Source: Sphaerisporangium rubeum (lineage in GTDB: Bacteria; Actinomycetota; Actinomycetes; Streptosporangiales; Streptosporangiaceae). From it: a DNA stretch of 64,000 bases. Below, piece by piece: positions 30,486-55,965 of the stretch. The notes beneath the pieces were generated by a model. The model was not told where the DNA came from, did no database searches, and saw only the letters and a list, made by a program, of their open reading frames with translations. Position 1 is the stretch's first letter, and each line of letters opens with the position of its first letter. Location: the NCBI RefSeq assembly GCF_014207705.1, contig NZ_JACHIU010000001.1:124001-188000 (forward strand), written 5' to 3'. The position numbers and the translations under genes were made by a program.

Positions 30486-31733
30486 TCAGGACGCCGTGCT
30501 CACGGCGGGAGCGGGACGTACGGCGAAGGTGAGGACGGCGGCGAGAACGGCCATGCCGGCGGCCACGAGGAAGCCGCCGCCGGGGTGGCCGCCTGCGGCG
30601 AGGCTTCCCGCCGCCGCGGCGGCCAGCGCGCCGCCACCCTGGCCGAGCGCGTTCAGCCAGGCGAACGACTCGGTCATGGCGTCCTCAGGCGCGACCTCCT
30701 CCATCGCGGTGAACTGCGCCGTCATCATGGGTGCGAGCGCCACCCCGGTCACCGCGAACAGCAGCGCGAGCAGCCACAGGCTCGCGACGACGGAGGCCAC
30801 GGCGTACCCGCAGGCGAGCACGACGAGGAACACCCCGAGGTGCTGCGCGCTGGTGCCGCGCAGCTTCGACGCGCCGTACGCCAGGCCGCCGAACACGCTC
30901 CCCACGGAGAACGCCGCGATCAGCAGGCCGCCGGCGTCCGCGTTGCCGAAGGCGTCGGCGGTGGCGAGCAGCGCGACCTCCACCCCGATGATGCCGCCGG
31001 TCGCCAGCGCGCCGATCGGCAGCATCCAGCGCACCCCGGACGCGCGCAGCGGGCCGCGCCAGTCACGGGGGCCGTCACCGCCGGCGGGCCCGACCGCGCG
31101 TACCGCACGGGCCGTCGCCAGCGCGAGGCATCCGGCGGCGGTCAGCGCGGCCGTGACGCCGAGCGCGACCCGCGCGTCGCCGAGCACCAGCAGCAGGGCC
31201 ACCGTGGAGGGCCCGGCGATGTAGACCGCGTCCACGACGATGGACTCCAGCGCGAACGCCGCGGCGCGCACCCCCTTGTCGGTGAGCGACCTGCTCCACA
31301 GCGTCCGCATGATCGGCGAGATCGGCGGCAGCATCACGCCGATCAGGAAACTCGCCGTCAGCGGCACGGCGACCGGAGCGCGCACGGCCAGCGCGACCAG
31401 CAGGCCGAGCATCGCCAGAGCCTGGCCGAGGCCCGAGACGACCAGCACGATCGCCGGGCCCCGCCGGTCGGCGGCACGGCCACGCAGCGGTCCAGAGACG
31501 CCGACGCCGACCGCGTACAGGGCCGCGGCCAGGCCGGCCACGCCGTAGGAGCCGGTGGCCTGCACGATGCCGACGACCAGGACCAGGCCGATCATGCCGC
31601 TCGGCAGGCGGCCGACCAGCGCCGCCAGCGTCATGGTCGCCACGCCAGGCGTGGCGAACAGCCTGTGGTACCGGCGCAGGCCGGTCGTGGGGGCCTCGGC
31701 CGACCCGGCGTCGGGTGAGGTCTCGGTCGTCAT
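30486..31733 (-). CDS. MFS transporter, probable exporter of the PEARL cluster
   Basis: A 415-residue major facilitator with about twelve hydrophobic helices. After a polar N-terminus come GRLPSGMIGLVLVVGIV and the loop LRGRAADRRGPAIVLV, which matches the MFS motif A (GxxxDRxGRR-like). The C-terminal helices are alanine/glycine rich. Drug:proton antiporter-like proteins of this form export small metabolites. The gene starts 35 bp after the last PEARL gene of the minus-strand operon, with GAGGGAACGC before ATG 31733, so it probably exports or gives resistance to the product. Confidence 0.88.
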   Translation of the reverse strand: MTTETSPDAGSAEAPTTGLRRYHRLFATPGVATMTLAALVGRLPSGMIGLVLVVGIVQATGSYGVAGLAAALYAVGVGVSGPLRGRAADRRGPAIVLVVSGLGQALAMLGLLVALAVRAPVAVPLTASFLIGVMLPPISPIMRTLWSRSLTDKGVRAAAFALESIVVDAVYIAGPSTVALLLVLGDARVALGVTAALTAAGCLALATARAVRAVGPAGGDGPRDWRGPLRASGVRWMLPIGALATGGIIGVEVALLATADAFGNADAGGLLIAAFSVGSVFGGLAYGASKLRGTSAQHLGVFLVVLACGYAVASVVASLWLLALLFAVTGVALAPMMTAQFTAMEEVAPEDAMTESFAWLNALGQGGGALAAAAAGSLAAGGHPGGGFLVAAGMAVLAAVLTFAVRPAPAVSTAS

Positions 31734-31768
31734 GCGTTCCCTCCTCGTGCGGGCAGGGTGTGCGGCTT

Positions 31769-34060
31769 TCAGGGGCGGGATGGTGCGGGACGGGTCAGTT
31801 GCATCCGTAGTTCACAGGTGTAGCGGCCGGCGTCGTCGCGCAGCCAGAGCTCGTCGGGACCGGGATACATCTCCTCCACCATGACGCGGGTTCCCGGCCC
31901 GCCGCCGAGCAGATGGCCGAGCAGTTCGGCCGCGAACGGCGACGCGGTGTCCACCAGGACGGGCTTGCGCTCGGACTCGACCCTGGCGAACACGAAACGC
32001 GGCAGTCCCTGTGCGCGCGCCAGGCGGCGCAGGCCGAGCAGCGCGGCCGGGCCGCGGCCACCCGCGGGGAACGCGGCGGCGTCGAGGGTCCAGCGTTCGC
32101 GCTGGTAGCAGGCGTCGCCGATCGTCACCCTGCCGAGGTGGCCGGTGTCGCCGCGCACCGGCGCGTGCAGCACCGCTGGGTGGGAGAGCGCGGCGAACGG
32201 TGGGTAGGTGGTGAGGTCGTTGAGCATCGGGTACAGCGTGATGGCGGCGCCGTCCGGATCGCGCAGGACCGGACGGCCGTCGTTCAGGGTCACCGTGCAC
32301 TCCGCCGCGGAGACGTTGTCGTCGCGTCCCTCGGGGTCGGTGGCGGTGAAGACGAGCCTGCGTCCGGGGAAACGGTAGAAGCCCTTGTTGCGGCGGCTGG
32401 TGGCGAGTCCGGTCACGCCTTCCCCGTCGCGGGCCAGCCAGCCCGCCGCCACCTGGTCGAACGCGCCGGGGTCGGGGTGGAAGGTCGTGAGCCAGCCGCG
32501 CAGCAGCAGGTGGTGGTGCACGCGCGCGAGCACCACACGCCACGACCCGTCCACGGCCTCCTCGGGGCTCGTCATCGCGAGGCACACGTCGGGGAGCGAG
32601 TAGCGGGGGCCGGGTGCTGAGGCGCCGAGGGTGTCCGCGGCGAGCTTGACCGGTTCACCGTCGGCGGCCGGCACGTCCACCGGCCGCACCGGTGAGAAAC
32701 GGCCCCCTTCCTGGTGCTCGGGCCTGGCGCGCGCCGCGTAGTCGAGGAAGCCGAGCGTGCCGCCTGCGGCCTCGACGACGGCGGCCATGGCCGCGCGGTC
32801 ACCGTCCTGCACCTGGTCGCCGAAGGCGGCCGACAGTTCGAGCGCCGGGCTGAGCGCGCGGGCCAGCCGCCGCGCGGTGTCCGTGCCGACCGCCAGGCGG
32901 AACGGCGACGAGGCCTCCTCGAACAGCACCAGCCGGTCGGCGTACACCGCTCCCGCGCCGCGCCGCGCGGCGACGCCGGTCAGCTCCGTGAAGACCGTCT
33001 CCAGCTCGGTGAGCACCGCACGCCGCGTGCCGACGTCCCCCCCGGCGGCGGCGAACCGTCCGCACAGGTCCGCGAGGCCGTCGAGGCGCGCGAGCCACAG
33101 GTCCCTGCCTGGCGACTCAGGCAGCTCAGCGATCGAGGCGCGCAGGCCCGGCAGCGGGTCGACCGTCTCACCGGGCACCTCAAGGCCGCGTACCGCGACG
33201 CCGGCCGCGAGCAGCGGCCGTACCGCCTCGGCGACCCGCCGCACCGGCACCCCGGTGGCCTCGGCCAGGCGCGCGAGGCCCGCCGGACCGCGTTCGAGTT
33301 CCGCGACCACCTGTGCCGCCGGCGACCCCTCAGGCAGCGGCACCTCACGGTCCTCCGTGGCGATCCCGGCGGACGTGCGGACGGCGAGCAGGCTCAGCCG
33401 TACCGGGACGTGCGCGGCCAGCGCCTTGTCGCGGGCCGCGGCCCTCGACAGCTCGACGACGGCCCAGTGCGCGATGAACGCGCGCCGTACCTGCGGCCCC
33501 GCGGGCTCGACCGCGAAACCGGTGCCGCCGACCTCGCCGTAGGCCATCGGCCCGAACGCGCCTGCCGTCTCGTTCTTGGCGCAGAACCGCTGCAGGTAGT
33601 TGTAGAGCTGCCGTTCCACCCGCCGGTACTTGGCCGTGTCAGGGACCTCCTCCAGCGCGAGGTAGCTCGTCACCATCCCGTCGTACATCCCCGGGTTGGA
33701 CGTGAACACCGCGTCCTGGAACCGGTCGGTCCCCGCCAGCTCACGCAGCCTGGCCCGCAGCCGAGGCGATTCCGCCGCGTACACCTCGCCGAGCCGGCCG
33801 AACGCCTCCTGCCACCGGCGCACCAGCCCCTTGGCCCGCGCCGGCACCGGTGGCGCGCCGCCTTGCGCCAGCACGCCGACGACCTCACCCACCGCGTCCC
33901 CGAGCACCTCCGCCAGCTCGTCCTCGACCGCCAGCACCTCGGCGCACGCCGCCAGCACCTCGGGACCGGCCCCGAGCGACTCGACCCAGTCGAACGGCAT
34001 GCCGGCGTGCCGCATCACGAAGATCGCGCCGAGCTCCCAGTCCACGCCGTCACCACTCAT
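31769..34060 (-). CDS. LanB-like peptide aminoacyl-tRNA ligase (PEARL) 1
   Basis: A 763-residue lantibiotic-dehydratase N-terminal-type protein, the shortest of five paralogues here. Family landmarks in order: MRHAGMPFDW (residue 16), LQRFCAKNETAGAFGP (KNET at 162-165), VYADRLVLFEEA (YADR at 373-376), YQRERW, ESERKPVLVDT and EMYPGPDELWLRDD near the C-terminus. It lacks the SpaB_C elimination domain of true Ser/Thr dehydratases, as PEARLs do; those use aminoacyl-tRNA to extend a scaffold peptide. In this paralogue the YADR block ends in EEA rather than the E(D/E)C of the other four, and GAFGP replaces SFFGP. ATG 34060 follows GAAGGAG. Amino-acid specificity cannot be read from sequence. Confidence 0.85.
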   Translation of the reverse strand: MSGDGVDWELGAIFVMRHAGMPFDWVESLGAGPEVLAACAEVLAVEDELAEVLGDAVGEVVGVLAQGGAPPVPARAKGLVRRWQEAFGRLGEVYAAESPRLRARLRELAGTDRFQDAVFTSNPGMYDGMVTSYLALEEVPDTAKYRRVERQLYNYLQRFCAKNETAGAFGPMAYGEVGGTGFAVEPAGPQVRRAFIAHWAVVELSRAAARDKALAAHVPVRLSLLAVRTSAGIATEDREVPLPEGSPAAQVVAELERGPAGLARLAEATGVPVRRVAEAVRPLLAAGVAVRGLEVPGETVDPLPGLRASIAELPESPGRDLWLARLDGLADLCGRFAAAGGDVGTRRAVLTELETVFTELTGVAARRGAGAVYADRLVLFEEASSPFRLAVGTDTARRLARALSPALELSAAFGDQVQDGDRAAMAAVVEAAGGTLGFLDYAARARPEHQEGGRFSPVRPVDVPAADGEPVKLAADTLGASAPGPRYSLPDVCLAMTSPEEAVDGSWRVVLARVHHHLLLRGWLTTFHPDPGAFDQVAAGWLARDGEGVTGLATSRRNKGFYRFPGRRLVFTATDPEGRDDNVSAAECTVTLNDGRPVLRDPDGAAITLYPMLNDLTTYPPFAALSHPAVLHAPVRGDTGHLGRVTIGDACYQRERWTLDAAAFPAGGRGPAALLGLRRLARAQGLPRFVFARVESERKPVLVDTASPFAAELLGHLLGGGPGTRVMVEEMYPGPDELWLRDDAGRYTCELRMQLTRPAPSRP

Positions 34061-34159
34061 CCGGCCTGCTCCTTCGCTGACATCATGAACACACGGAAAG
34101 CCCGTCGCACACCCGTACGGCACCCCAGTCCGATGTCCGGAAGCGGCGCCGCCGTGTCG

Positions 34160-35605
34160 TCATGTGCGGACCAGGAGGCCGTTGCCGACCAAGGTGTCGA
34201 GGATTCTGGTGCGGCTCGCGGGGGAGACGCCGGGGAGCGCGTCCGCCTCCGGCACGGGATGGCGGGTGGTGCGCAGGCGGGTCGCGACGCGGGGGTCGAG
34301 GCGGATGACGCGGCCCTGGCGCAGGTCGACGGCGTACCACTCCGGCGCGGGGCCCGCCACCAGCACGGTGTCGGGGGCCAGCGCGATCCCCGGGGCCCCG
34401 GCGGCGCGGGGGTCCTCGGCGAGGTAGGCGGCGGCGACCCGCGCGGGGATCAGGGTGCCGGTGCTCGCGAGCGTGGGGCCGATCTCGGCGATCAGGGCCT
34501 GGACGCCGGCAGGAGGCAGGGTGCCTTCCGCGTCGAAGCGGTGGTGGCGGGCCAGGTCTCCCGCGGCTGGGGTGACCTCCACCGGGGTGCCGGCCCAGTG
34601 GAGGCCGGTCCAGTGCACGGGCCAGTCGAACGGCCGCAGGCCGACGAGGCGGTCGACGGGGCCGTCGGCGGCGGTCAGCGTGGCGACGGCCGTGCGCGCG
34701 CGGCCGGCGCCGATGCCTGGCGCGCCGAGCCACAGTTCGGCCAGCACCGTGACGCCGGCGGCGCGCAGCCGGTCCACGGCGGCCCGCAGGCGTTCCATCG
34801 GCACCCTGCCGCCGCCACGGCCGACCACCTCGTGATCGGCGGCGCAGATCCCGAGGACGACCGTCGTGCAGCCGGACGCGATCAGCGCGTCCGGGTCGGC
34901 CACCGTCCTCGCGAGCCCGGCGCGACCGGCCCACGGCCCCGGTGGCACGGGGTCGCCGGCGCGTTCCCGCCAGTACGGGCCGGGGCCGTCCGCCGGCGGC
35001 AGCCCGGTCACCCGGTACCGCAGCGGCGCGGGAGGTTCGGCCAGGCGCGCCTGGCGCAGCGGTGGCAGGCCGGACAGCACCGGCCAGTACGCGCGCGCGA
35101 AACGGCCGGTGACCAGCGGCGGGGTGGTGAGCCGCGCGGCCATGGCGAGCGCGGCGGGGAGTTGCTGGTCCCGGTCGAGCACCAGCCAGACGTCACCGCC
35201 TGCCGACTCCGCCTCGGCGACGGCCTCGTCCACCTCGGGGTCGTACGGCGCCGCGCCGAGCGAGGCCCGCAGCGCCGCCGCCGAATCCTCGGTGGTGCCG
35301 TCGCGCAACTCCAGATCGTCCAGGGTGATCTCGACCGCCGCGTCCGCCTGGTGCACCGCGGCGGCCACGAGCACCGCGGCGGCCCGCAGCCGGCCGAGCG
35401 GCCCGGCCGGGTCGGCGAGCCCCGCGAGCCCGGCCCGCAACCGTACGACCAGTTCACCGCTGTCGTGCGGACCGGTGGCCGTCGCGTCCGCGGCGAGCAG
35501 ACGCGCGGCGAAACGGCGACCCGGGTCGAGAACGCGGTGGCCTTCGGCCTGAGTCACCAGGGTGACGTCGGCCAGCGGGGGGACGACGACCGTCGCGGGG
35601 GTCAT
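34160..35605 (-). CDS. Radical-SAM/B12-like barrel protein lacking the FeS cysteines, with C-terminal winged-helix-like region
   Basis: A 481-residue protein that I could not assign with confidence. Residues about 110-170 resemble a B12-binding-type Rossmann half (GGDVWLVLDRDQQLPAALAMAARL), and about 265-330 resemble the second half of a radical-SAM barrel (LIASGCTTVVLGICAADHEV; RLRAAGVTVLAELWLGAPGIG). The CxxxCxxC cluster motif is absent; the only cysteine pair is in SGCTTVVLGIC. The last 60 residues (WYAVDLRQGRVIRL...ILDTLVGNGLL) look like a PqqD/RRE winged helix, which would bind a leader peptide. It overlaps PEARL 2 by 4 bp and so belongs to the cluster. It may be a scaffold-binding or pseudo-enzyme subunit. 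Confidence 0.6.
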   Translation of the reverse strand: MTPATVVVPPLADVTLVTQAEGHRVLDPGRRFAARLLAADATATGPHDSGELVVRLRAGLAGLADPAGPLGRLRAAAVLVAAAVHQADAAVEITLDDLELRDGTTEDSAAALRASLGAAPYDPEVDEAVAEAESAGGDVWLVLDRDQQLPAALAMAARLTTPPLVTGRFARAYWPVLSGLPPLRQARLAEPPAPLRYRVTGLPPADGPGPYWRERAGDPVPPGPWAGRAGLARTVADPDALIASGCTTVVLGICAADHEVVGRGGGRVPMERLRAAVDRLRAAGVTVLAELWLGAPGIGAGRARTAVATLTAADGPVDRLVGLRPFDWPVHWTGLHWAGTPVEVTPAAGDLARHHRFDAEGTLPPAGVQALIAEIGPTLASTGTLIPARVAAAYLAEDPRAAGAPGIALAPDTVLVAGPAPEWYAVDLRQGRVIRLDPRVATRLRTTRHPVPEADALPGVSPASRTRILDTLVGNGLLVRT

Positions 35606-38001
35606 GGGGTGGGTCCGACGCGTGCGGTGAGCGCCACGCGGAACTCGCTGGTGTGGCCGCCGGTGGAGCGGTGGAGCCACAGCTCCTCAGGTCCGGGGAG
35701 CATCTCCGAGATCGCGAGCGGGCCGGCGGCGGCCAGCGTGCGGAGGTGCTCCTGGGCCTGCGGGACGTCGAGGTCCAGGCAGACGGGCTTGGTCTCGGCG
35801 GGGCTGAGCGCGAAGACGTGGCGCGGCCAGCCGCGGCGTTCCCGCTCGGCGACCACGGCGGCGAACAGTTCGAGGCGGGTGGCGGCGGCCAGGACATCGG
35901 GGAGAGCGCCGGCGGGGAGGTCCCAGCGTTCACGCTGGACCACCAGGTCGCCGAGCACGAGCCTCGGGGTGTGCTCGCCGGCGCGCAGCCGGGGGAAGTC
36001 CACCGGGACGGGAGCGAAGACCCGCAGGTGCGGGTGATCGTCCTCACCGATGTACAGCGACAGCGGGCCGTTCGGACCGACCAGCTCGGGGACGCCGTCC
36101 CGCAGCACGGCACGCAGCTCGCCGGCGGCGACCGCGCGGCCGTCCGGAGCGCCGGACCGGCCGGTGACCTCGATGAACGTGCCGGGGTAGGTCGAGCCGA
36201 CGAGACCCTTGTGCTGACGGCGGTGCAGCACCGTGGCCGCGTGCTCCCTGCCTCCCCACACCTCCAGCACCGGCTCGACGTCCCCGGCCAGCTCGGCGGG
36301 GTCAGGAGCGAAGTGGGCCTGCAGGCCCCAGGCGAAGACGTACGGGTGGATCTCGCCGAGCACCAGCGGCGCGTCGTCGGCCGCCTGGAGCATCACGTCG
36401 GGGCTGACGAAGAACGCGCCGTCCGGCGGGTCGGTGAGATCGGCGACCGCCTCGGGGGTGAGGAAGGCCCGGCGGCCGTCGGAGACCGCGAGGAACCGGT
36501 CGAGCAGCGCGGTCCGCCACCGGCCCCAGGTGTCGAGCACGGGCTCGAAGGCGCCGGTCGCGAGGCGCGCGGCGAACACGTCGGCGAAGTCGAGGAACGG
36601 CAGCGATCCGCCGTGCTCGGCCAGCACCTCGGCCGCGAGTGCGCGCAGGCCTTCGTGCTGGACACGGCCGCCGGTGAGGCCGAGGCGCAGCACCGGGTCC
36701 AGGGCCCGCTCCAGCCGCCGCGCGGTCGCGGCGGGCCACCGTACCGGCTGGCCGTCGGCGTGGCAGTCCTCGAACAGGATGAACCGGTCGGCGTAGGTGC
36801 GTCCCTGGTTGCGGCGCGCGTCCGCGCCGGTGACCGACGTGAACAGCTCCTCGGCGGCTTCCAGGATCTTGGCGCGCTCGGCCACGCCGGGTTCCTCGGC
36901 GAACCGCGCGAGCAGCGCGTCGAAGTCCTCGGCGGCGTCTTTGAACCGCGCGGCGGCCGGGACGTCCGGCAGGCGTTCCACCACGTCGCGCAGGGGATAC
37001 ACGGTGGTCGAGCTCGGTTCCAGGTCCCGGCGCAGCAGCAGCGTGCGTTCCAGCGCGGCGACGCGACGCTCGGCCTCCTCAGGCCCGATCCCGGTGACGT
37101 CCCCGAGCTCGGCGGCCGTCCGCACGCCGTCGGCGGCGCGCACCAGCGCGAGATCGGCGCCGGTCAGCGGCACGGGGGTCCGGCCGGGTACGCGCGCGGT
37201 CCCGGTCTCGTCGATGATCGCGACCGGCAGCCGGCGTGGCGGCAGCCGCCTGCGGATGGACGGGATCGCGGCGGCGGCCCGGCCCCAGGCGACCGCCACC
37301 CAGAACGTCGCGAATGTTTCCCGTGAAGCAACGCCGGACGGCGTCTCGGGGCCGCACGCGATGGCGTCGGCCTCGGGGTCGACCCGGCCGAAGCAGACGG
37401 GGCCGAAGAAGCTCGTGGTCTCGTTCTTGGCGCCGAGACGCTGCAGGTAGGCGTACTCGCGCCGTTCGATCGCGCGGTCCCGCGCCGTACGCGAGGCGTC
37501 CACCGGTCGCTCGTCCCTGCGGACCAGCGAGTCCAGGAAGTCCGGCGAGAGCAGGAACACCGCCTCCCGCACGTCGGTCCGTCCGGTCGCGGCCCGCAGC
37601 CCCGCGGCGGCCGGCGGCTCCTCCTGCGCGAGCAGCTCACCGGCCCGCGCGGTGTGCGCGGCGGCCTCGTCCGACGCGCCGGTCCACTCCCGGTGGCCGG
37701 ACACCAGCTCCGCCGACCACGGCCCGGCCGGCAGCTCGGCCGGCGCGCGCCGGCCGACACGGGCCCGCAGCTTGGACAGAGCGCGCAGCGCGGCCTTGTC
37801 GCCGTGCGCGCGCAGCCGCTCGACCTCCGCCGGAATCGTGCTCTCCAGCAGCCCGGCGCGGGCCGCCTCGGCACGCTTGCCGCACCGGTGCGCCGCACGC
37901 AGCGCCGCCGCGGTGCGCGGGCAGTCCAGTCCGGCCAGCAGGCCGAACGGGAAGCCCGCGCGCCGCAGCACGAAGGTGTCGAGCATCCGGAACGCGGTCA
38001 T
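35602..38001 (-). CDS. LanB-like peptide aminoacyl-tRNA ligase (PEARL) 2
   Basis: A 799-residue paralogue. Landmarks: VLRRAGFPFGLL (residue 11), LQRLGAKNETTSFFGP (KNET 192-195), TYADRFILFEDC, FFVSPDVMLQA, LGEIHPYVFAWGLQAHFAPD, VVQRERWDLP, AETKPVCLDLD and EMLPGPEELWLHR. No C-terminal elimination domain. It has the expected all-family order and no insertions, so I regard it as functional. It is coupled on both sides: its ATG overlaps the TPR gene stop and its stop overlaps the start of the barrel protein. Which amino acid it loads, and onto which scaffold intermediate, is unknown. Confidence 0.87.
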   Translation of the reverse strand: MTAFRMLDTFVLRRAGFPFGLLAGLDCPRTAAALRAAHRCGKRAEAARAGLLESTIPAEVERLRAHGDKAALRALSKLRARVGRRAPAELPAGPWSAELVSGHREWTGASDEAAAHTARAGELLAQEEPPAAAGLRAATGRTDVREAVFLLSPDFLDSLVRRDERPVDASRTARDRAIERREYAYLQRLGAKNETTSFFGPVCFGRVDPEADAIACGPETPSGVASRETFATFWVAVAWGRAAAAIPSIRRRLPPRRLPVAIIDETGTARVPGRTPVPLTGADLALVRAADGVRTAAELGDVTGIGPEEAERRVAALERTLLLRRDLEPSSTTVYPLRDVVERLPDVPAAARFKDAAEDFDALLARFAEEPGVAERAKILEAAEELFTSVTGADARRNQGRTYADRFILFEDCHADGQPVRWPAATARRLERALDPVLRLGLTGGRVQHEGLRALAAEVLAEHGGSLPFLDFADVFAARLATGAFEPVLDTWGRWRTALLDRFLAVSDGRRAFLTPEAVADLTDPPDGAFFVSPDVMLQAADDAPLVLGEIHPYVFAWGLQAHFAPDPAELAGDVEPVLEVWGGREHAATVLHRRQHKGLVGSTYPGTFIEVTGRSGAPDGRAVAAGELRAVLRDGVPELVGPNGPLSLYIGEDDHPHLRVFAPVPVDFPRLRAGEHTPRLVLGDLVVQRERWDLPAGALPDVLAAATRLELFAAVVAERERRGWPRHVFALSPAETKPVCLDLDVPQAQEHLRTLAAAGPLAISEMLPGPEELWLHRSTGGHTSEFRVALTARVGPTP

Positions 38002-39951: not shown

Positions 39952-40092
39952 TCAGGCGAGCGGAGCGATGCGGTTCTCGATTTCCTCGAGCAGGAACTCC
40001 ATGTCGTCCAGGTCGCCGAGTTCATCGTCGTCCGCGGCGTCCTCCACCACGGAATCGACCGCGGATTCCGGAGCGATCTCCTCGTCGGCCAT
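39952..40092 (-). CDS. Scaffold (precursor) peptide of the PEARL pathway
   Basis: A 46-residue, very acidic peptide that is easily missed because of its size. ATG 40092 has an excellent ribosome site, AAGGAG seven bases upstream. It begins MADEEIAPESAVD, continues with an acidic run (AADDDELGDLDD) and ends MEFLLEEIENRIAPLA. There is no cysteine, and no Ser or Thr after residue 14, so it is not a lanthipeptide core. The FxLxEIENRIAPLA-like end is what I recall for scaffold peptides of ammosamide- and bha-type PEARL systems, where amino acids are added to the C-terminal residue. It heads the minus-strand operon, 67 bp before the TPR gene. Confidence 0.85.
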   Translation of the reverse strand: MADEEIAPESAVDSVVEDAADDDELGDLDDMEFLLEEIENRIAPLA

Positions 40093-43032: not shown

Positions 43033-44117
43033 CCCGATACGACATCGCCGTCATCGGCGCCGGAGTGGTGGGTGCGTCCACCGCGCGCCTGCTCGCCGAC
43101 CAAGGCGCCTCGGTATGTGTGCTCGACGCCGGTGCGCGCGGCGGACGCGGCTCGCGCGCCGCGGCAGGCGTCGGGGTGCCGTCGGTGCGCCTGCTCGCCG
43201 ACCCGGTGATGCTCGGCTTCGCCGAGGCCGGCCGCAAGCAGTTGCTCGCCGACCTGGACGAGCTCACGGGGAACGACCCCGGCAGGCTGCGCACCGAGGC
43301 CGGGGTGATCCGGGTGGTGCGGACACCGCAGCACCGTGAGGAGCTGGAGACCGCCGCCGCCGGCCACCCCGGCTACCTCGGCGAGTGGCTGGAAGGCGAG
43401 CGGCTGACCGCCACCGAGCCGCTGCTGAGCATCGCCAAGATCCACGGCGCGTACTTCGACCCCACCGGCCTGGTGATGGACGCCGACGGTTACGTCACGC
43501 TGCTCCAGCAGGCCGCCGTCGCCGCCGGCGCGCAGCTGCGGCTCGGCACCCAGGTGTTCGGCGTCGAGTCGTCGGCGAGCGGTGTTCAGCTGCGCACGCA
43601 GGACGGCGCCATCGAGGCCGACCGGGTCGTCGTCGCCGCCGGCGCGTGGTCCGGCGCCATCCCCGGCCTCACACCGTTGCCGGTCCGTCCGCTGCGCGGC
43701 CAGATGCTGCGCCTGGACGCCACCGTCACCCTGCGGCACGTCGTGTCCGGTTCGGTGTACGCCGCGCCGAGCAGGTCCGGCACGGTCGTCGTCGGCGCCA
43801 CCGAGGAGAACGCGGGCTTCGCCGAGTCGGTGACCCCCGAGGGCCTGCTGGTGCTGACCGCGTTCCTCGGCCGCATGCTGCCGCGCCTCGCCTCCGGCAC
43901 CCTGCGCGATGCCTGGAGCGGCCTGCGCGCCACCGCGCCTGGCGGCCGTCCCCTGATCGGCACGGTTCCCGGCGACGACCGCGTGATCGCCGCCACCGGT
44001 CACGGCGGCCAGGGCATCCTCACCGGGGGGCTCACCGGACGCGCCGTCGCCGGTTACCTCGCCACCGGTGACGACGAGTGGGTGAGAGCGTTCACCCCGG
44101 CGCTGGAGCGCGGGTGA
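43029..44117 (+). CDS. FAD-dependent glycine/D-amino-acid oxidase (ThiO-like)
   Basis: A 362-residue flavoenzyme of the DAO family. The FAD-binding GxGxxG is IAVIGAGVVGASTARLLADQG (residues 6-26), with the acidic residue in CVLDAG. The substrate domain and the C-terminal FAD loop GHGGQGILTGGLTGRAVAGYL are present. In ammosamide-type pathways a glycine-oxidase homologue cleaves a PEARL-installed glycine so that its nitrogen stays as an aromatic amine; a similar role is proposed here. Start ATG 43029 overlaps the stop of PEARL 3; the stop overlaps the GTG of PEARL 4. This double coupling is strong evidence that it acts with the ligases. Thiamine synthesis is unlikely: no thi gene is near. Confidence 0.88.
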   Translation: MTRYDIAVIGAGVVGASTARLLADQGASVCVLDAGARGGRGSRAAAGVGVPSVRLLADPVMLGFAEAGRKQLLADLDELTGNDPGRLRTEAGVIRVVRTPQHREELETAAAGHPGYLGEWLEGERLTATEPLLSIAKIHGAYFDPTGLVMDADGYVTLLQQAAVAAGAQLRLGTQVFGVESSASGVQLRTQDGAIEADRVVVAAGAWSGAIPGLTPLPVRPLRGQMLRLDATVTLRHVVSGSVYAAPSRSGTVVVGATEENAGFAESVTPEGLLVLTAFLGRMLPRLASGTLRDAWSGLRATAPGGRPLIGTVPGDDRVIAATGHGGQGILTGGLTGRAVAGYLATGDDEWVRAFTPALERG

Positions 44118-46684
44118 CCCCGGCGGAGCCTTTGTCCGCCGGAGCGCGGGTGAGCGCGGTGGAGGAGCACCTGTCCGCCGGCGCACCCCGCTGGGAGCTG
44201 CATCCGTCGTTCATCCTGCGCAGCACCGGGTTTCCGTTCGCCGTGCTCGACCGCGTCTCCTTCCCGCGTACGGCCGCGCTGATCGACGCGGCACTCGACG
44301 CCGAGGACGCGGTGGCGCACGCGGCGGCGGAGGCCGTGGCGCACCTGCGCGACCACGACGGGGTGACCGACGGCCGGCTGCGGCGCAGGCTGTGGAAGAG
44401 CCTGTCGCGGCACCGGCCGCTGCCGGCCGGGGAAGGTGAGGACGCCGACGCCGCGACCCGTGCGCTGCTCGCGCGGTACACGGTGGCACTGGAGACGCGT
44501 GAGCAGGCGTGGGAGGCGGCCCGTGCGGGACTCGCCGCCGAGCTGCCGGTGCGGCGTGAGGCGCTGCGGGACGCCGCGGCGGACGAACGGTTCCAGGAAG
44601 CGGTGTGGTTGTCCAGCCCTCAGATGTACGAACGGGGGCTGCGCGGCCACGTCGCCGGGGACCTCACCGGCCCGCGCACCGGCAGGGTGCGGTCGCTGGA
44701 ACGCCAGATCGCCGGGTACCTGCAGCGGGTCGCCGCCAAGAACGAGACCGCGTCGTTCTTCGGCCCCATCAACTACGGCGACTTCAGCTCCCCAGGCGCG
44801 GAACGGCCCCGCGGCGGCACGGTGACCCGGCGGCACGCCTACGTCGCCTACTGGGTGGTGCGCGCGCTCGCCGACCGGATCGCACAGGAGCCGTCGGTAC
44901 GTCCTCATCTGCGGCCCCGCCTGTCCCCGCTCGCCACCGTGTCGGTCGCGGCACCGGTCGCGGGGCCGGCCCCGGGCTCCCCTCCGGCCGGTGCGCGTGT
45001 CGAGGTCACCTTGGCGCGCAGCCGCACGGTGCGCGTCACCGGACGGGCCGCCGAGGTGCTGCCGCTGGTGGACGGCCTGCGGGACGCCGCCGAGCTGGCC
45101 CGCCTGACCGGCGCACCGGTCGCCGAGGTCGTGGCCGCGCTGGACCGGCTCGCCGGAGCACGGTTGCTGACGTTCGGCCTGGACCTGCCGGTCACCGAGC
45201 CGCGCGCGCTGGAAGCCCTGTTCGGCCGGGTCGCGGAGCTGCCGGGAGACTGCGCGGCACGCGAGGAGTGGCTCGGACACCTGACCGCGTTGCGTGCCAC
45301 GCAGCAGGAGTTCGCGCAGGCCGGCTTCTCCCGCCGCCAGGACCTGCTCGACGACCTTGAGCGGACGGTGGCCGGTCTCACCGGGCTCGAACCCCGGCGC
45401 GAAGGCGGCCGCCTGTACGCGGACCGGCTGGTGATCACCGAGGAGTGCCTCGGTGACGCCACCCCGCTCAGGCTCGGCGGCGCCGTGCTCGACCGGCTCA
45501 CCGCCGAGCTCGGCCCCGTGCTCGACCTGCTGGCCGCCGCCGCGATCGGCTCGCACGCCGCGCTGACCGCGACCGCCACGACCGCGCTCGGCCTGACGGA
45601 AGGCGGTCGCGTCCCGCTGACCCGGTACCTGGCCGACCCCTGGCCGGAGCGGCCCGTGCCGCCGGTGCCTCCGGCCCGGTGGCGCACGCTGATCGAGGAG
45701 AAGGCGGCAGGCGGCGAGCCGGTCGTGCTCGACCCGGCGGACGTCGCGGTGCCGCCGGACACGCTGGCCGGACAGGCGCTGGTCTGCTCGCCGGACGTCA
45801 TGATCGTGGCACGGGACCTGGACGCCGTCAGAGCGGGGGACTTCACCCTCGTGCTGGCCGAGTCGCACGACACCGCCTTGATGTGGGGGTGGGCCCTGCA
45901 GTTCGCCGAGGACCCCGCCGCCGCGCAGGCCGAGGTGGCGGCGTTGCTCGACCGGCTGGACACGACCCACCCGCTGGCGAACATGCTCACCGCCAAACGC
46001 GCGAAGATCGTGCCGTTCGAGTTCCCCGGCCCCACCGTGGAGGCCGCGCAGCCGAGCCACCGCACCGACGGCCGCACCATCCCCGCCGGTCAGGTGGACG
46101 TCGTGGCGCGAGACGGCAGGCTGCTGCTCGCCGCGCCTGGTCACGACGGCTTCCTGCTGTACAACGGCGAGCTGGACTCCCCGGCGCACAACGTGCTGGC
46201 CCCGCCTCGGGTGCGGCCGGTCGCGTTCGGCGGCGACGACGGCGCGCGGCACGTTCCCCGTGTCACGGTCGGCCGCACCGTGATCCAGCGTGAGCGGTGG
46301 CTCGTGGCCCGCGACGAGCTCACCCCGGACTCCCCGCCTGGCACCCCCGGCGAGGAGTCGGCGTTCGCGCTGTTCGTGGCGGTGCGCCGCGCGGTACGCC
46401 GGCACGGGCTGCCACGCTGGTCGTTCGTCAAGATCCCCGGAGAGCGCAAGCCGGTGCTGCTGGACACCGAGAGCCTGTTCCTCGCCGAACTCGTCGCGCA
46501 TCTCGGCGAGCCCGGCAGTGATCTGACCCTTTCCGAGATGCTTCCCGGCCCCGGCGACCTGTGGCTCCCCGGACCGGACGGCGCGCACTGCGCGGAACTG
46601 CGCCTGGTCGCGGCACGCGCCGTCCCCCTGCCGCGGGAAAGCGCGGCGGCCCCGGTGCTCCAGACGGCCGGGGTACCCGGATGA
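44114..46684 (+). CDS. LanB-like peptide aminoacyl-tRNA ligase (PEARL) 4
   Basis: An 856-residue paralogue. Landmarks: ILRSTGFPFAVL, LQRVAAKNETASFFGP (KNET 209-212), LYADRLVITEEC, LVCSPDVMIVA, LAESHDTALMWGWALQFAED, IQRERWLVA, GERKPVLLDTE and EMLPGPGDLWLP. I chose GTG 44114 because it overlaps the oxidase stop (GTGA); upstream in-frame codons would lie inside that gene. The first 27 residues are a low-complexity lead with a repeated LSAGA motif. The stop overlaps the TldD start by 4 bp. Most similar in style to PEARLs 1 and 2 by eye, although a tree is needed. Confidence 0.86.
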   Translation: MTPAEPLSAGARVSAVEEHLSAGAPRWELHPSFILRSTGFPFAVLDRVSFPRTAALIDAALDAEDAVAHAAAEAVAHLRDHDGVTDGRLRRRLWKSLSRHRPLPAGEGEDADAATRALLARYTVALETREQAWEAARAGLAAELPVRREALRDAAADERFQEAVWLSSPQMYERGLRGHVAGDLTGPRTGRVRSLERQIAGYLQRVAAKNETASFFGPINYGDFSSPGAERPRGGTVTRRHAYVAYWVVRALADRIAQEPSVRPHLRPRLSPLATVSVAAPVAGPAPGSPPAGARVEVTLARSRTVRVTGRAAEVLPLVDGLRDAAELARLTGAPVAEVVAALDRLAGARLLTFGLDLPVTEPRALEALFGRVAELPGDCAAREEWLGHLTALRATQQEFAQAGFSRRQDLLDDLERTVAGLTGLEPRREGGRLYADRLVITEECLGDATPLRLGGAVLDRLTAELGPVLDLLAAAAIGSHAALTATATTALGLTEGGRVPLTRYLADPWPERPVPPVPPARWRTLIEEKAAGGEPVVLDPADVAVPPDTLAGQALVCSPDVMIVARDLDAVRAGDFTLVLAESHDTALMWGWALQFAEDPAAAQAEVAALLDRLDTTHPLANMLTAKRAKIVPFEFPGPTVEAAQPSHRTDGRTIPAGQVDVVARDGRLLLAAPGHDGFLLYNGELDSPAHNVLAPPRVRPVAFGGDDGARHVPRVTVGRTVIQRERWLVARDELTPDSPPGTPGEESAFALFVAVRRAVRRHGLPRWSFVKIPGERKPVLLDTESLFLAELVAHLGEPGSDLTLSEMLPGPGDLWLPGPDGAHCAELRLVAARAVPLPRESAAAPVLQTAGVPG

Positions 46685-48066
46685 GCACGCCGCTCGTCGA
46701 CGGGGACGCCGCGGTGCGGCTCGCGGCCACCGCGGGGACCGGACGCAGAGCGGAGGTGTTCGCCGAGTCCTGGGTGCTGTCGCGGGTCGTGGCCGAACAG
46801 GACGGCCTGCGGCTCGGACAGCGCCGCAGGGAGGGAATGGGGTTGTCCCTCGTCACCGAGCGGGGGGTGCACCACAGGCACCTGCCGTGGCTGGCGAGCG
46901 AACGGCTGCCGTTGCTGCTGAACGACGCCGCGCGCGGCGCCGACGTGTACGGCCCGCCAGGCGCCGACTGGGACGGCCCCGACGTGGCCACCGACACCGA
47001 CATCGCGACCTCCGCCACGCTGGCCCGCATGGTGGGGGTCGCCGCGGCCGAGGCCGGCGCGGCGTACCCGGGGGTGACGGTCGCGCGGGTCACCGGTGAG
47101 TTCACCGAGCGGTCCACGCTGGTCGCCAGGGAGGACGGTGTGCTGCGCCACGGCGCGCACGCGCATGTGGAGCTGCGGGTCCACGTCACCGCCAGGCGCG
47201 GCGGTGCGACCGCGCGGGTGATGCGTGTCGCGGGGGCCGAGGTGCGCGACCCGGGGACCCTCGCCACGTCGGTCGGCGACGAGGTGATCCGGGCCGCGGC
47301 GCGCGCGGCGGCCGACGCGGCGGTGCGCGACCTGGACGCCGTCGATCCCCCCGCGGGTGAACTGCCGGTGGTGCTCGCGGCCGGCGGGCCCGGCGCGTTG
47401 CTGCACGAGGTGTGCGGCCACGGGCTGGAGGCCGACGTCGCGCTGCAGCCAGGCGCGGCGTACGGAGGGGTGCTCGGGGAACTGCTCGCGCCTTCGGGGC
47501 TGACGCTCGTCGACTCGCCGCGCGCGCCGGCCGGCGCCGGGCTGTACCGCTTCGACGACGAAGGGGAACCCGCCGCGTCGGTGGCCCTGCTCGAAGGCGG
47601 TGTGCTGCGCTCCTACCTGCACGACCGGCGCACGGCCGCCGCGGCGGGGACGCGGCCCCATGGCCACGGCAGGCGCCTCAGCTACGCCTACCCCGCGCTG
47701 CCGCGCATGAGCTGCACGTACGTCGTCCCCGGCGCGCTGGCACCCGAGGAGATCATCGCGGCGACCCCCTTCGGGCTGTACGTCGAGTCCATCGTGTCCG
47801 GCGAGACCGACATGAGCTCCGGCCGGTTCAGCGTGCGGGTCACCTCGGGCCGTCTCATCGAGAACGGCAGGCTCACCGCGCCGATCCGCGAGGCCACCCT
47901 GTCGGGTACGGGTCTCGGTGTGCTGCGCGACATCGACCTGATCGGTGACGACCTGCGTTTCATGCCGTACGGCTATCAGTGCAACAAGCTCGGCCAGTTC
48001 CCCGTCACCGTCTCGGTCGGCCAGCCGACGCTGCGGGTGGCCGCGATGGGGGTGAGCGGCCCGTGA
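46681..48066 (+). CDS. TldD-like zinc metalloprotease subunit
   Basis: A 461-residue protein of the TldD/PmbA family. The zinc motif HEVCGH (about residues 242-247) is the active HExxxH version, so this is the catalytic subunit. The C-terminal signature CNKLGQFPVTVSVGQPTLRV is typical of TldD. TldD/E heterodimers degrade unfolded peptides through a narrow pore and mature microcin B17 and other modified peptides. Here it would trim the scaffold and release the modified C-terminal amino acid. ATG 46681 overlaps the PEARL 4 stop; the stop overlaps the TldE GTG. Confidence 0.92.
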   Translation: MSTPLVDGDAAVRLAATAGTGRRAEVFAESWVLSRVVAEQDGLRLGQRRREGMGLSLVTERGVHHRHLPWLASERLPLLLNDAARGADVYGPPGADWDGPDVATDTDIATSATLARMVGVAAAEAGAAYPGVTVARVTGEFTERSTLVAREDGVLRHGAHAHVELRVHVTARRGGATARVMRVAGAEVRDPGTLATSVGDEVIRAAARAAADAAVRDLDAVDPPAGELPVVLAAGGPGALLHEVCGHGLEADVALQPGAAYGGVLGELLAPSGLTLVDSPRAPAGAGLYRFDDEGEPAASVALLEGGVLRSYLHDRRTAAAAGTRPHGHGRRLSYAYPALPRMSCTYVVPGALAPEEIIAATPFGLYVESIVSGETDMSSGRFSVRVTSGRLIENGRLTAPIREATLSGTGLGVLRDIDLIGDDLRFMPYGYQCNKLGQFPVTVSVGQPTLRVAAMGVSGP

Positions 48067-49379
48067 CCGCCGAGCACCTGCTCACGTCGGCGAGACGGCT
48101 GCTCGACGCGGTGGCGGACGCCGGAGGCGACGCGGCTGACGTGCAGACCGTCACCACGTCGGTGCGCGCCACCCAGATGTTCGCCGACGGCACCCACAGC
48201 AGCCGCGACGGCGTCACCACGGTCACGGGTCTGCGGGTCCGCGCCGAAGGCGGCGTCGCCGGCCTGCTGCTCGGCGCGCCACCCGGTTCACCCGCGCAGG
48301 TGGCGCGGCTCGCCGTCGAGATGGCCCGTCGTTCCCGGCTCACCACCGATCCCCACGACCTGCCGCCGCCGGTCGCGGCGCGCCGGCCGGTCGAGGCCGC
48401 GATCCACCCGTCGGCCGTGGAGCCGGACGTGCCGTTCGACTACTGCCGTGCTCTGCTGTCCCGGCTGCTGACCCCCGTGGAGGGCCCCGTCGCGCTCGGC
48501 GCCGAGCATGTGCGCAGCCGGAGCTGGACGGTGGTCGCGGACGCCGCGGGGACGGCCGTGGCGTACGAGCAGGCGGGCCACCACGCGTGGCACTGGCTGG
48601 AAGGGCTCGGCGGCCACATGGTGGACGGGCTCGCCGCCACCCGCTTCGGCGAGCTGAGCTGGGACGTCCTCGCGGACCGCGCGCGCGAGTTCCGTGCCGT
48701 CCACCTCGCGGGGCCGCGCGCGGTCGTGGAGAGCGGATCGCACCGCGTGCTGCTGCACCCCGAGGTCGCCGCGCATCTGGTGCGCAGCCTCGGATTCCTG
48801 CTCAGCGCCGGCAACGTGCTCGCCGGCATGCGTCCCCTGCTGACCCGGGTGGGCCGCAGGATCGCGGCCCCCGCCGTCACCCTCGTGGACGACCCACCCA
48901 CCCCGGTGGACGCGCAGGGCACGCCGACCCGGCCGCAGACGCTCCTGGAGAACGGGGTGCTGCGCGGTTTCCTCACCGGCCGGGACAACGCGGCGGCGCT
49001 CGGCGTGGCCCCGTCCGGCTCGGCACGCCGCGAGGCGCCGGACAAACCGGCCGTGGAGAGCCCGTCCCGCATCGCGCTCGTCCCCGGCCACCAGTCCATG
49101 GACGAGTTGCGGTCCGCCATGGACGACGGCATCGAAGCCGTCGGGGTCGTGCATCCCGGCGCCATCAGGGGCCGCCGCGGCACGTTTTCCACGGTGGTGC
49201 TCGGCTGGCGGGTGCGCGGCGGTCGCCGCACGCACGCACTCGGCCCGGTGCGGCTGTCTCTCGGCGTGTTCGAGCTGCTCCGCTCCATCGAGGCGGTGGC
49301 CGACGAACCGGCCCGTTCGTTCCTCGCCGCCGGCGCCTCCACCCCCGGTGTGCTCGTCTCGCGCATGGACGCCGGCTGA
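48063..49379 (+). CDS. TldE/PmbA-like subunit
   Basis: A 438-residue partner of TldD with the same fold and no HExxxH motif. The middle has SHRVLLHPEVAAHLVRSLG in place of the zinc helix, and the C-terminus shows VVHPGAIRGRRGTFSTVVLGWRV followed by a DUF-like tail. TldE is needed for the activity of TldD. The GTG at 48063 overlaps the TldD stop (GTGA), guaranteeing balanced synthesis. Having its own dedicated TldD/E pair in the cluster, rather than relying on a chromosomal one, matches other PEARL loci. Confidence 0.9.
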   Translation: MTAEHLLTSARRLLDAVADAGGDAADVQTVTTSVRATQMFADGTHSSRDGVTTVTGLRVRAEGGVAGLLLGAPPGSPAQVARLAVEMARRSRLTTDPHDLPPPVAARRPVEAAIHPSAVEPDVPFDYCRALLSRLLTPVEGPVALGAEHVRSRSWTVVADAAGTAVAYEQAGHHAWHWLEGLGGHMVDGLAATRFGELSWDVLADRAREFRAVHLAGPRAVVESGSHRVLLHPEVAAHLVRSLGFLLSAGNVLAGMRPLLTRVGRRIAAPAVTLVDDPPTPVDAQGTPTRPQTLLENGVLRGFLTGRDNAAALGVAPSGSARREAPDKPAVESPSRIALVPGHQSMDELRSAMDDGIEAVGVVHPGAIRGRRGTFSTVVLGWRVRGGRRTHALGPVRLSLGVFELLRSIEAVADEPARSFLAAGASTPGVLVSRMDAG

Positions 49380-49508
49380 GCGCGCCTGACAGCAACCGGC
49401 ATGCGGCTGACAACTAGCTGACATCGTCTCACCTGGTCCGGGGCTCACGAAGCTCGGAGAGTTACTGCTAGCGACAGCGAACTCCTCCAGCCCCGTGAAG
49501 AGGCCCAG

Positions 49509-52046
49509 ATGACGCATGCCCTGCCACGTCCCGCTCCGTGGTCGTTGCTCGACCACCTGGTGGTGCGCACGACCGGGTTCCCCTACGAGGCGGTCGAGGA
49601 GCTGAGGCTGCCGGCGTCGGCCGAGGCCATCGACGCCGTGCTCGCCGCGGAACGCGCGGCCGGTGAGCACCGTGCGACGCTGCTGCGCGACACGTTCCCC
49701 GCCGCGGTGCGCGCCGCCGCCGGTGACAAGGCCGCGGGACGGCTGCTCAGCAGGCAGCGTGCGGCGGTGGGCCGCTTCCGTCCCGTCGCCGTCCCCGAGG
49801 CGTACGGCGCGGCCGTACCGACCGAGGCGCTGACCGAGGCGCTGACCGAGTGGAACCGGCTGCTGGCGGTGACGGCGGAACTGGCCGAGCGCGCCGAGGC
49901 CGCGCACCCCGCCGAGCTGGCCCTGTGCGGTGAACGGCTGAGGGCCGTCGCCGCCGATCCGCGCCTGCAGGACGCGATCTTGCTGCTCAGTCCGGCCTTC
50001 CACGACAGCCTGCGCAAGTACGCCGCCGGATCGGCCAAGGACGCGCGCCAGGTGGAACGGCGGCTCGCGGCCTACCTGCAACGCCTCGCCGCCAAGAACG
50101 AGACCAACAGCCACTACGGCCCGGTCAACCACGGCAGGCTGGACCCCGGGCTGACCGCGCCGCTGCGCGTGGTTCGTGACCCGTCGCGGGTGACCCGCAC
50201 GGTGTTCGCCGCCGCGCGGCTCGCCGACGCGCTGACCGCCGCCGTCCACGCCGACCCCCGCATGCGTCCGCACCTGCGGCCCCGCCGCTCGGTGGCCTTC
50301 CAGGTGGCGGACGGCCGCGCGACCCACACCGGCACCGGCCGGGCCGTGGCGCTGTCCCCTGAGGACGTACGACTGATCGAGGCCGCCGACGGCACGCGCG
50401 GGGTGGCCGAGCTCGCGGCGGACCTCGGCGAGCCGTGGACGTCGGTCGCGGCCCGGGTCGCGGCGCTCGTCCACCGCCGCCTGCTGGTCTTCGCGCCACC
50501 CGCCGCGCCGGACACCGCGTACCCGCTCGCGGCGGTGGCCGGCTGGCTCGCGAGTTGTCCACAGGCTGTGGACGACGATGCCGACCAGGCCGTCAAGGAG
50601 TGGAGTTCCACCGCGCAGGAGCTGACCGGCCTCGTCGCCGCGTGCGCCGCCGAGCCGCGCACCACCGCGATGACCGCGCTGCGGCGGCTGGAGGAGCGGT
50701 ACGAGGAACTGTCGGGGGAGGCCGCGCGGCGCGGTGGCGGGACGATGTACGCCGACCGGACACTGGTCTTCGAGGAGTGCAGAGGCGACCTCGCGCGGTT
50801 CGAGCTCGGCGGCGGCACCGCGCGGCGCGTCGGCGACGACCTGGTCCCGGTGATCGAGCTGTGGCGCACCGCGGCCCTGCTGCGGAGCCACGACCAGCGG
50901 CGGCAGGCCCGGCGGGTGCTCGACGCGCTCACGCCTCGCGGCGACGTCCCGCTGCTGCGCTACCTGCGCTCGGCCACCGCGGCCGTACCGGACGGCGGCC
51001 CGGTTGGCGGCCCGGTGGATGGCACGGTTGGTGGCACGGAGGACACCGCGCTCGCCGGCTTCGGCCGCGCGCTGCGCGGGCTGCTCGACGGCCACGGCGA
51101 CGCGCCGCACGTGGAGCTGGCCCCGGAGCGGCTGGCCGCCGTGTCGGCCGGCGCGCTCGCCGCGATCGACGACGTGAGCCATCCGTCGTTCACCTCGGTC
51201 GACCTGATGCTCGCGGCCGACGGGCCCGAGGCGGCGGCCGAGGGGAGGTTCCGGCTCGTGGTGGGTGAGGGCCACGCGCCGGCGTTGCTGTCGGTGTTCC
51301 CGACCGACCACTTCCGCCGTGAGTCCGGCGACCCCGACCGGGTGGCGGCGCTGCTCGCGAAGGTGTTCGCGGACGCCGGGGTGCGGGTGGGCCAGGTGCT
51401 CATCGGCCGCGGCACCAAGATCTTCCCGTACCGGCTGGCCGACACCCTGATCGAGCTGCGACCCCACCTGCCCGGCCCCGGCGGCGTTCCCGCGGCCGCG
51501 CTGCGCGTGCGCGCGGACGGCCACGGGGTGGCCCTGTACGACGACGACGGCCCCCTGCTGCTGCACCCCCAGTTGCGCCGCGCGCCGGGCTTCGACCCGT
51601 TCGCGCCGTTCACCTTGCCGGCGGTCGAGGACCATCCCGTCACGCTGCCTGAGCACACCCCGAGGATCACCGTCGGCGGTGTCGTCTACCAGCGGGAACG
51701 GTGGCGGGTGCCGGGCCTGCCGTGGGACGCCGGGCTCGGCGGCTGGGGGCTGCTGCGCGCCGCGCGCGAGTGGCGCGCGCGGTCCGGCATGCCGGAGCAG
51801 GTGTACTACCGCACGCCGGAGGAGCCGAAGCCGTTGCTGCTCGACTTCACCAGCCGCCACCTGGTGGAACTGTTCCACCGGCACGTGGCGCGCGGCGCGG
51901 GTCCGGTGACGGTGAGCGAGATGCTCCCCGCACCGGACGACCTGTGGCTGACGGGCCCGGACGGCCGCCACACCATGGAACTGCGCGCCTTCGCCGTGCA
52001 CCCCGGCGGCGCCGGCGCCACGGGCTGGCGCCTGCACCGCGGGTGA
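49509..52046 (+). CDS. LanB-like peptide aminoacyl-tRNA ligase (PEARL) 5
   Basis: An 845-residue paralogue and the last gene of the cluster. Landmarks: VVRTTGFPYEAV, LQRLAAKNETNSHYGP (KNET 196-199), MYADRTLVFEEC, FTSVDLMLAADG, VGEGHAPALLSV, YQRERWRVP, EEPKPLLLDFT and EMLPAPDDLWL. It is the most divergent: SHYGP replaces SFFGP and the SPDVM block reads SVDLM. A GPVGGPVDGTVGGTEDTA spacer occurs near residue 497. It has its own ribosome site (GAAGAGG) and a 129-bp gap after TldE, so it may be separately expressed. Confidence 0.85.
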   Translation: MTHALPRPAPWSLLDHLVVRTTGFPYEAVEELRLPASAEAIDAVLAAERAAGEHRATLLRDTFPAAVRAAAGDKAAGRLLSRQRAAVGRFRPVAVPEAYGAAVPTEALTEALTEWNRLLAVTAELAERAEAAHPAELALCGERLRAVAADPRLQDAILLLSPAFHDSLRKYAAGSAKDARQVERRLAAYLQRLAAKNETNSHYGPVNHGRLDPGLTAPLRVVRDPSRVTRTVFAAARLADALTAAVHADPRMRPHLRPRRSVAFQVADGRATHTGTGRAVALSPEDVRLIEAADGTRGVAELAADLGEPWTSVAARVAALVHRRLLVFAPPAAPDTAYPLAAVAGWLASCPQAVDDDADQAVKEWSSTAQELTGLVAACAAEPRTTAMTALRRLEERYEELSGEAARRGGGTMYADRTLVFEECRGDLARFELGGGTARRVGDDLVPVIELWRTAALLRSHDQRRQARRVLDALTPRGDVPLLRYLRSATAAVPDGGPVGGPVDGTVGGTEDTALAGFGRALRGLLDGHGDAPHVELAPERLAAVSAGALAAIDDVSHPSFTSVDLMLAADGPEAAAEGRFRLVVGEGHAPALLSVFPTDHFRRESGDPDRVAALLAKVFADAGVRVGQVLIGRGTKIFPYRLADTLIELRPHLPGPGGVPAAALRVRADGHGVALYDDDGPLLLHPQLRRAPGFDPFAPFTLPAVEDHPVTLPEHTPRITVGGVVYQRERWRVPGLPWDAGLGGWGLLRAAREWRARSGMPEQVYYRTPEEPKPLLLDFTSRHLVELFHRHVARGAGPVTVSEMLPAPDDLWLTGPDGRHTMELRAFAVHPGGAGATGWRLHRG

Positions 52047-55922: not shown

Positions 55923-55965
55923 AAGCTGGGAGAATGTCCCCACGGAGTCGTATGCTTGCGTGGAC

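Follow-up and report, generated by a model that had tools for sequence, protein, structure and literature searches.

A pyrroloiminoquinone-type pearlin cluster of Sphaerisporangium rubeum with a short scaffold end and two further ligase lineages

The closest described relatives of the gene cluster considered here are amm of Streptomyces sp. CNR-698, ame of S. uncialis DCA2648 and bha of Halalkalibacterium halodurans C-125. According to PMC8210675, ame is nearly identical to amm in organisation, and Amm8, Amm9, Amm11 and Amm18 are LanB-like proteins, Amm9 being AmmB2; the remaining amm ligases are assigned here, from gene order, as AmmB1, AmmB3 and AmmB4. In bha, the scaffold peptide BhaA (P0096) ends in APLAL, one residue short, and the missing Ala is installed by the peptide aminoacyl-tRNA ligase (PEARL) BhaB1 (PMC9850906); this one residue is the known precedent for the completion of a scaffold by a PEARL. 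The cluster described here occupies positions 30486-52046 of a 64,000-nucleotide stretch of Sphaerisporangium rubeum DNA (assembly GCF_014207705.1, contig NZ_JACHIU010000001.1, positions 124,001 to 188,000), hereafter the window, within a 7.5 Mb single-contig genome. It encodes a scaffold of the amm family that ends two residues early and five LanB-like proteins, numbered B1 to B5 by position (Table 1).

An earlier note on this DNA had proposed a PEARL cluster with its own scaffold peptide rather than a lanthipeptide cluster, and this proposal is supported by domains, scaffold and partner genes. Open reading frame (ORF) calls returned the five LanB-like genes where the note had placed them, and all five proteins carry, in the same order, the landmarks R..G[FM]P, KNE[TS], YADR, RERW or RRAW, and E[FL]R. 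The scaffold is real, as it matches NCBIfam NF033737, the 'ammosamide/lymphostin RiPP family' (RiPP, ribosomally synthesized and post-translationally modified peptide), with 39.8 bits (cut-off 30). Lant_dehydr_N, recognised as a LanB-like domain, exceeded the Pfam cut-off in three of the five ligases (B1, B2 and B4), and B5 reached 35.7 bits against a cut-off of 28 in the genome search. B3 itself matched no Pfam LanB model; such a match was obtained in three of six members of its lineage, and its AlphaFold2 model, of moderate confidence (mean predicted local distance difference test score 69.7), has TbtB and GodF as best fold matches, led by the TbtB glutamylation domain (6ec7, E 3.8e-18). The SpaB_C elimination domain (PF14028), which the note had reported as lacking, was found in none of the five ligases at E <= 0.1 and in none of the ten cluster proteins. 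The absence of LanC likewise held for the ten cluster proteins and the neighbouring genes scanned, a set that does not comprise every ORF of the window.

The partner genes have counterparts in the published ammosamide and bha pathways, namely AmmA, AmmC1/BhaC1, Amm10, Amm12/13 and Amm14/BhaG. The tetratricopeptide repeat (TPR) protein has the same neighbours, AmmA and AmmB1, as in ame of S. uncialis, shows 35% homology to the ame protein, and carries K361, N441 and K612, which are invariant in 16 homologues and spaced as in AmmC1; it is predicted to be an AmmC1/BhaC1-type hydroxylase. The radical S-adenosylmethionine motif CX3CX2C is absent from the barrel protein and from nine aligned homologues, as has been reported for Amm10, and the TldD-like protein scores 211.8 bits with TldD PRK10735, under the equivalog cut-off. 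Judged from its sequence, the locus is a pyrroloiminoquinone-type (ammosamide/lymphostin) pearlin cluster, the product itself being predicted.

With amm and ame, the cluster shares the scaffold family, the TPR hydroxylase, AmmB1-3-type ligases, the Amm10-like protein, TldD/E and the glycine oxidase. It differs from them in that its scaffold ends before the final LA and has no tail, in its two additional ligase lineages, in the absence of the AmmB4 lineage and in having no halogenase or methyltransferase gene within the 30486-52046 unit. With bha it shares a short scaffold, BhaC1 and the glycine oxidase BhaG, but the scaffold of bha is one residue short and that of the window two. Myxobacterial clusters share the TPR protein, the Amm10-like protein, the glycine oxidase and AmmB2- and AmmB3-type ligases and are sister in the TPR tree, yet they have two ligases within the stretch compared, and the sole scaffold found among them ends in LALA. 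The earlier view that the gene combination matches no known product thus fails for the overall gene set, all of which has amm/bha counterparts, and stands for the B3/B5 lineages and the short scaffold. Similarly, the system is not undescribed as a pathway type, which is ammosamide-type, but it appears to be so as a subtype with a short scaffold and two extra ligase lineages.

The main ligase phylogeny was inferred with IQ-TREE under LG+C20 from 53 of 93 rows, covering 12 of 24 regions and excluding the bha ligases; three unassigned S. xanthophaeus ligases, which form long branches in a quicker 69-row tree, were left out, and a 167-residue region-edge fragment (Msed_19050) had been dropped before the first tree. 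Three of the five ligases fall into known lineages: B2 groups with AmmB1 (100/100), B1 with AmmB3 (100/100) and B4 with AmmB2 (96/91). B3 and B5 form separate lineages, each supported by 100/100, outside all four AmmB groups, and the 69-row tree agrees. In profile searches, the five ligases scored 1131-1473 bits in their own lineages and at most 426 in the next best. The lineage of AmmB4, the Arg ligase, is absent from four whole genomes, namely that of the window (G000; best 239 bits), G191, G300 and G858; the best scores in these four are 220-243 bits, while two positive genomes reach 1151 and 1242. It is retained in S. album, S. krabiense and S. huiliensis. Of the 12 LALA-type regions covered completely, four (Asyz, Achi, G683 and G680) lack it as well, and it is thus not needed for the wider family.

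A further LanB-like protein of another type, with a 959-residue frame, is encoded elsewhere in the genome (L071; G000:C1:3944282-3946315); it was considered as a relocated AmmB4 and rejected, having merely a distant likeness to several lineages. Streptomyces xanthophaeus (L062/L063, 12844-37445 of the joined stretch) has an amm-type cluster with seven ligases and a full LALA scaffold; three of these ligases fit none of the seven lineages, and one carries HHGIQPW, a B3-like HHGxQxW loop.

Key sites of BhaB7/TglB listed in a 2026 review include an N-terminal Arg, YADR, Glu-x-Arg and E-x-H. The first three have motif counterparts in all five ligases, and E-x-H is kept in four; B1 has ARVH, and its AmmB3-lineage relatives also have AR or SR. 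From these motif counterparts, the five proteins are predicted to be PEARL-type ligases that perform ATP- and aminoacyl-tRNA-dependent C-terminal addition. The loop that follows E-x-H varies by lineage (93 rows, ligase pieces of 500 residues or fewer excluded), being HPY[VM][FY][AG]W in AmmB1, HD[AT]xxxxxWA[LM]QF in AmmB2 and B4, HHHL in AmmB3, HDD in AmmB4, HHGxQ[VI]W in B3 and LLSVFPTDHF in B5. This lineage-specific loop is a candidate determinant of amino acid choice.

The two ligase lineages outside the AmmB groups go together with a short scaffold end. The comparison set consisted of 24 cluster regions, the window included, and scaffolds were found in 22, none being found in two myxobacterial regions. 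Eight scaffolds end exactly in ENRIAPLA, those of the window, S. album, S. krabiense, S. siamense, Streptomyces huiliensis, S. buecherae, G858 and Streptomyces sp. I05A-00742; the other 14 run on to IAPLALA, and eight of these carry a tail. In amm, LALA stands before Trp; the window scaffold is missing the final two residues of this motif. Both B3 and B5 are present in 8/8 APLA clusters, the last B5 having been found by genome search (728 bits) just outside the region first compared, and neither is present in any of the 14 LALA genomes (whole genomes, plus one Myxococcus), where the best scores of 313 (B3) and 309 (B5) bits belong to paralogues; in the genome of the window, the two profiles score 1382 and 1424 bits, respectively. 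A search of about 5.8 billion proteins gave 480 scaffold matches, and among the 120 listed, whose endings were counted, 31 end in APLA, 35 in APLALA, 49 in APLALA with a tail and one, BhaA, in APLAL, the remaining four having other ends. Readthrough or a frameshift that would supply LA was considered and rejected, since all eight short scaffolds stop at TGA and nothing downstream is common to both subgroups.

In the TPR tree, which is rooted by midpoint only, the sister group of the APLA proteins is myxobacterial, and one of its members (L040) is encoded next to a LALA scaffold. As LALA occurs both there and in the amm type, the short end looks derived, and the sequences suggest that two scaffold codons were lost in the APLA group.

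A reason for the requirement of a particular scaffold end can be sought in bha. According to PMC9850906, the hydroxylase BhaC1 is highly specific for Leu-Ala before Trp, four substitutions of that Leu are rejected, and deletion of Ala19, of Leu18 and Ala19, or of more yields non-substrates; the double deletion corresponds to the register of the window scaffold if Trp were added directly. The Trp ligase BhaB7 accepts many kinds of altered peptide ends (PMC11962472), which makes the hydroxylase the more probable source of the end requirement. Because BhaC1 rejects the double deletion and BhaB1 adds Ala to BhaA, we infer that the two residues come from B3 and B5. The interpretation we favour, at about even confidence, is that these two ligases would use aminoacyl-tRNA to restore Leu and Ala to the scaffold before Trp is attached. 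In such a pathway, B3 and B5 would extend RIAPLA to RIAPLALA by one residue each, after which the AmmB2-like B4 would add Trp and the TPR flavoenzyme would hydroxylate the indole to a quinone. The AmmB3-like ligase would then add Gly to the ring, on which the glycine oxidase would leave the Gly nitrogen, and the AmmB1-like ligase would donate a second nitrogen from Leu. Finally, TldD/E would cut off the modified Trp, the major facilitator superfamily (MFS) protein may export it, and the scaffold would be reused, while the Amm10-like protein may bind and present the peptide via a RiPP recognition element (RRE). In a broader formulation, which is tentative and falls somewhat short of even confidence, a widespread pyrroloiminoquinone subtype would have moved the last two scaffold residues out of the gene, B3 and B5 would rebuild Leu-Ala without a template, and three ligases in a row (B3/B5, then B4) would write Leu-Ala-Trp on a truncated ribosomal primer before the chemistry on Trp.

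Several observations weigh against scaffold extension by B3 and B5. In each of the TPR, glycine oxidase and barrel trees, a single branch sets the APLA clusters apart (supports 100/100, 81/73 and 93; 8, 8 and 7 APLA rows). The co-occurrence of short end and ligases is thus a single evolutionary event, in which hitch-hiking is possible, and S. xanthophaeus, with seven ligases and a full LALA scaffold, implies that extra ligases need no short scaffold. In addition, the TPR enzyme of the APLA clade may tolerate a shorter peptide, the identity of the added residues as Leu and Ala is taken solely from the homologous motif, and absence of the AmmB4 lineage leaves release without an Arg step unexplained, with B5, beside TldD/E, as a candidate for release. 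The single clade and the S. xanthophaeus ligases would also suit a pathway in which B3 and B5 act after Trp addition and not on the unmodified scaffold. Post-Trp action is known for bha and amm ligases, which add Asn, Gly, Leu and Arg (PMC11117183, PMC12424672), and the tolerance of BhaB7 would let Trp be added to a shorter end; however, BhaC1 accepts neither this two-residue deletion nor any other shortened end that was tried (PMC9850906), and the TPR protein retains the AmmC1 sites, which makes this pathway unlikely, if still to be reckoned with.

The position of B5 next to TldD/E has a further possible meaning, in that B3 alone (or B5 alone) might extend the scaffold while B5 caps the modified Trp for release by TldD/E, replacing AmmB4. 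Such a division would fit the finding that Amm12/13 act only after Arg addition (PMC12424672) and the lack of the AmmB4 lineage in G000, G191, G300 and G858, but AmmB4 and B5 coexist in S. album, S. krabiense and S. huiliensis, B5 lies outside the AmmB4 group in the tree, and by the BhaC1 deletions a peptide one residue short would still be no substrate; we consider the division improbable. Hardly any credence can be given to a split-LanB lanthipeptide or thiopeptide system, in which the five proteins would glutamylate Ser/Thr with no C-terminal extension. The B3 model does have the same fold as the split LanB glutamylation domains TbtB and GodF, but no elimination partner is present, the only candidate residues of the scaffold, Ser10 and Ser14, are far from its C-terminus, Thr and Cys are lacking from it, and the partner genes are those of amm rather than of such systems.

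Table 1. Genes of the cluster, with predicted roles and the basis of each assignment (positions in the window)
Feature	Position	Strand	Basis
MFS transporter, likely product exporter	30486..31733	-	Pfam MFS_1
B1, PEARL of the AmmB3 lineage; predicted to donate Gly to the quinone ring	31769..34060	-	Lant_dehydr_N; tree; ARVHHHL loop
Amm10-like barrel protein with TsrM/AprD4-like fold; radical SAM cysteine motif absent; RRE-like domain at the C-terminus	34160..35605	-	
B2, PEARL of the AmmB1 lineage; predicted donor of Leu-derived nitrogen	35602..38001	-	Lant_dehydr_N; tree; HPYVFAW loop
TPR protein, AmmC1/BhaC1-like indole hydroxylase (predicted FMN enzyme)	37998..39884	-	gene position; conserved sites
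Scaffold peptide, 46 aa, C-terminus ...ENRIAPLA	39952..40092	-	translation; NF033737
B3, PEARL of a lineage found, in the genomes compared, solely alongside APLA-end scaffolds; predicted adder of one missing residue	40468..43032	+	tree; co-occurrence; TbtB-like model
FAD glycine oxidase, Amm14/BhaG-like	43029..44117	+	Pfam DAO 206 bits; 37% identity to S. uncialis ame protein; tree
B4, PEARL of the AmmB2 lineage; predicted Trp ligase	44114..46684	+	Lant_dehydr_N; tree; HDTALMWGWALQF loop
TldD-like metalloprotease subunit (Amm12/13-like)	46681..48066	+	PmbA_TldD_3rd 183 bits
TldE-like partner subunit	48063..49379	+	PmbA_TldD_3rd 133 bits
B5, PEARL of a lineage found, in the genomes compared, solely alongside APLA-end scaffolds; predicted adder of the other missing residue	49509..52046	+	tree; co-occurrence

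By codon bias and ORF calls, the genes form two divergent runs, one leftward from the scaffold through the TPR protein, B2, the barrel protein and B1 to the MFS gene, and one rightward from B3 through the glycine oxidase, B4, TldD and TldE to B5; with the starts chosen here, four of the five junctions of the rightward run are four-base overlaps, which points to co-expression. The MFS gene also adjoins the cluster in the other five complete regions of the Sphaerisporangium/huiliensis/buecherae type and in G858. The span that the earlier note had given to the unit fits the comparison of flanks, as only two of 14 flanking genes of the window were matched in the 23 other regions, both to common families (a Usp protein in G858 and a SpoIIE-type protein in G994). 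A tRNA-Trp called by ARAGORN within the glycine oxidase gene (43291-43382, minus strand) was dismissed as spurious, for it overlaps a coding gene and is absent in six related loci. An Rfam scan gave no match, a search of Protein Data Bank sequences with the TPR, barrel and B4 proteins gave no relevant match, and a tblastn search of plasmids with the BhaA peptide gave no match.

On one side of the cluster lies a molybdenum hydroxylase gene set (52053-55920, minus; 55956-56619, plus) with Mo-binding and FAD subunits by Pfam, a small subunit (55333-55836) that looks 2Fe-2S by eye and, also by eye, a TetR-like regulator alongside; no homologues of this set were found in the other cluster regions compared. 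On the other side (28242-30152, minus) is a secreted-type cellulase of glycoside hydrolase family 5 with fibronectin III repeats and a family 2 carbohydrate-binding module.

The scaffold family was found in seven of 297 genomes of the taxonomic family (and in four of the 11 same-genus genomes listed), 11 of 345 genomes of the order, one of 394 drawn from the class, which is the window itself, and, counting the centre, six of 392 drawn from the genus of S. huiliensis; these samples overlap. Among the relatives encountered, L080-L087 (G683, G698, G676 and G680) are minimal amm-type clusters whose ligases are all of the AmmB2 and AmmB3 types, beside a TPR protein, an Amm10-like protein, TldD and a glycine oxidase. 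The myxobacterial relatives, one of them labelled Comamonas (L017-L020, L022-L024, L026, L027, L042 and L043), have AmmB2- and AmmB3-like ligases, an Amm10-like protein and a glycine oxidase, and the short relative L040:6555-6806 comprises a TPR protein and a scaffold only. In the genome of L029, a second site with several LanB-like matches (G1096:C95:210626-217143) is separate from the APLA cluster on C25.

NCBI labels some of these scaffolds, including those of S. album and S. huiliensis, as ammosamide/lymphostin RiPP family, and membership of the family is thus already known to annotators; what is new, as far as the sequences tell, is the subtype that joins a short scaffold end to the B3/B5 ligase lineages. 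In the open-access literature searched, neither the APLA subtype nor the B3/B5 lineages were found described, the nearest neighbours being work on amm, ame, bha and 3-thia-amino acids, a PEARL linked to a nonribosomal peptide synthetase, and reviews. Searches of the Sphaerisporangium literature, judged by title or abstract start, yielded no pyrroloiminoquinone-type product and no such cluster. If the proposed extension is true, template-free, tRNA-dependent synthesis on a ribosomal primer would form a longer relay than the published one-residue case of bha. Moreover, B3 and B5 bear on how PEARLs choose their amino acid, and the cluster predicts a pyrroloiminoquinone-type product from Sphaerisporangium.

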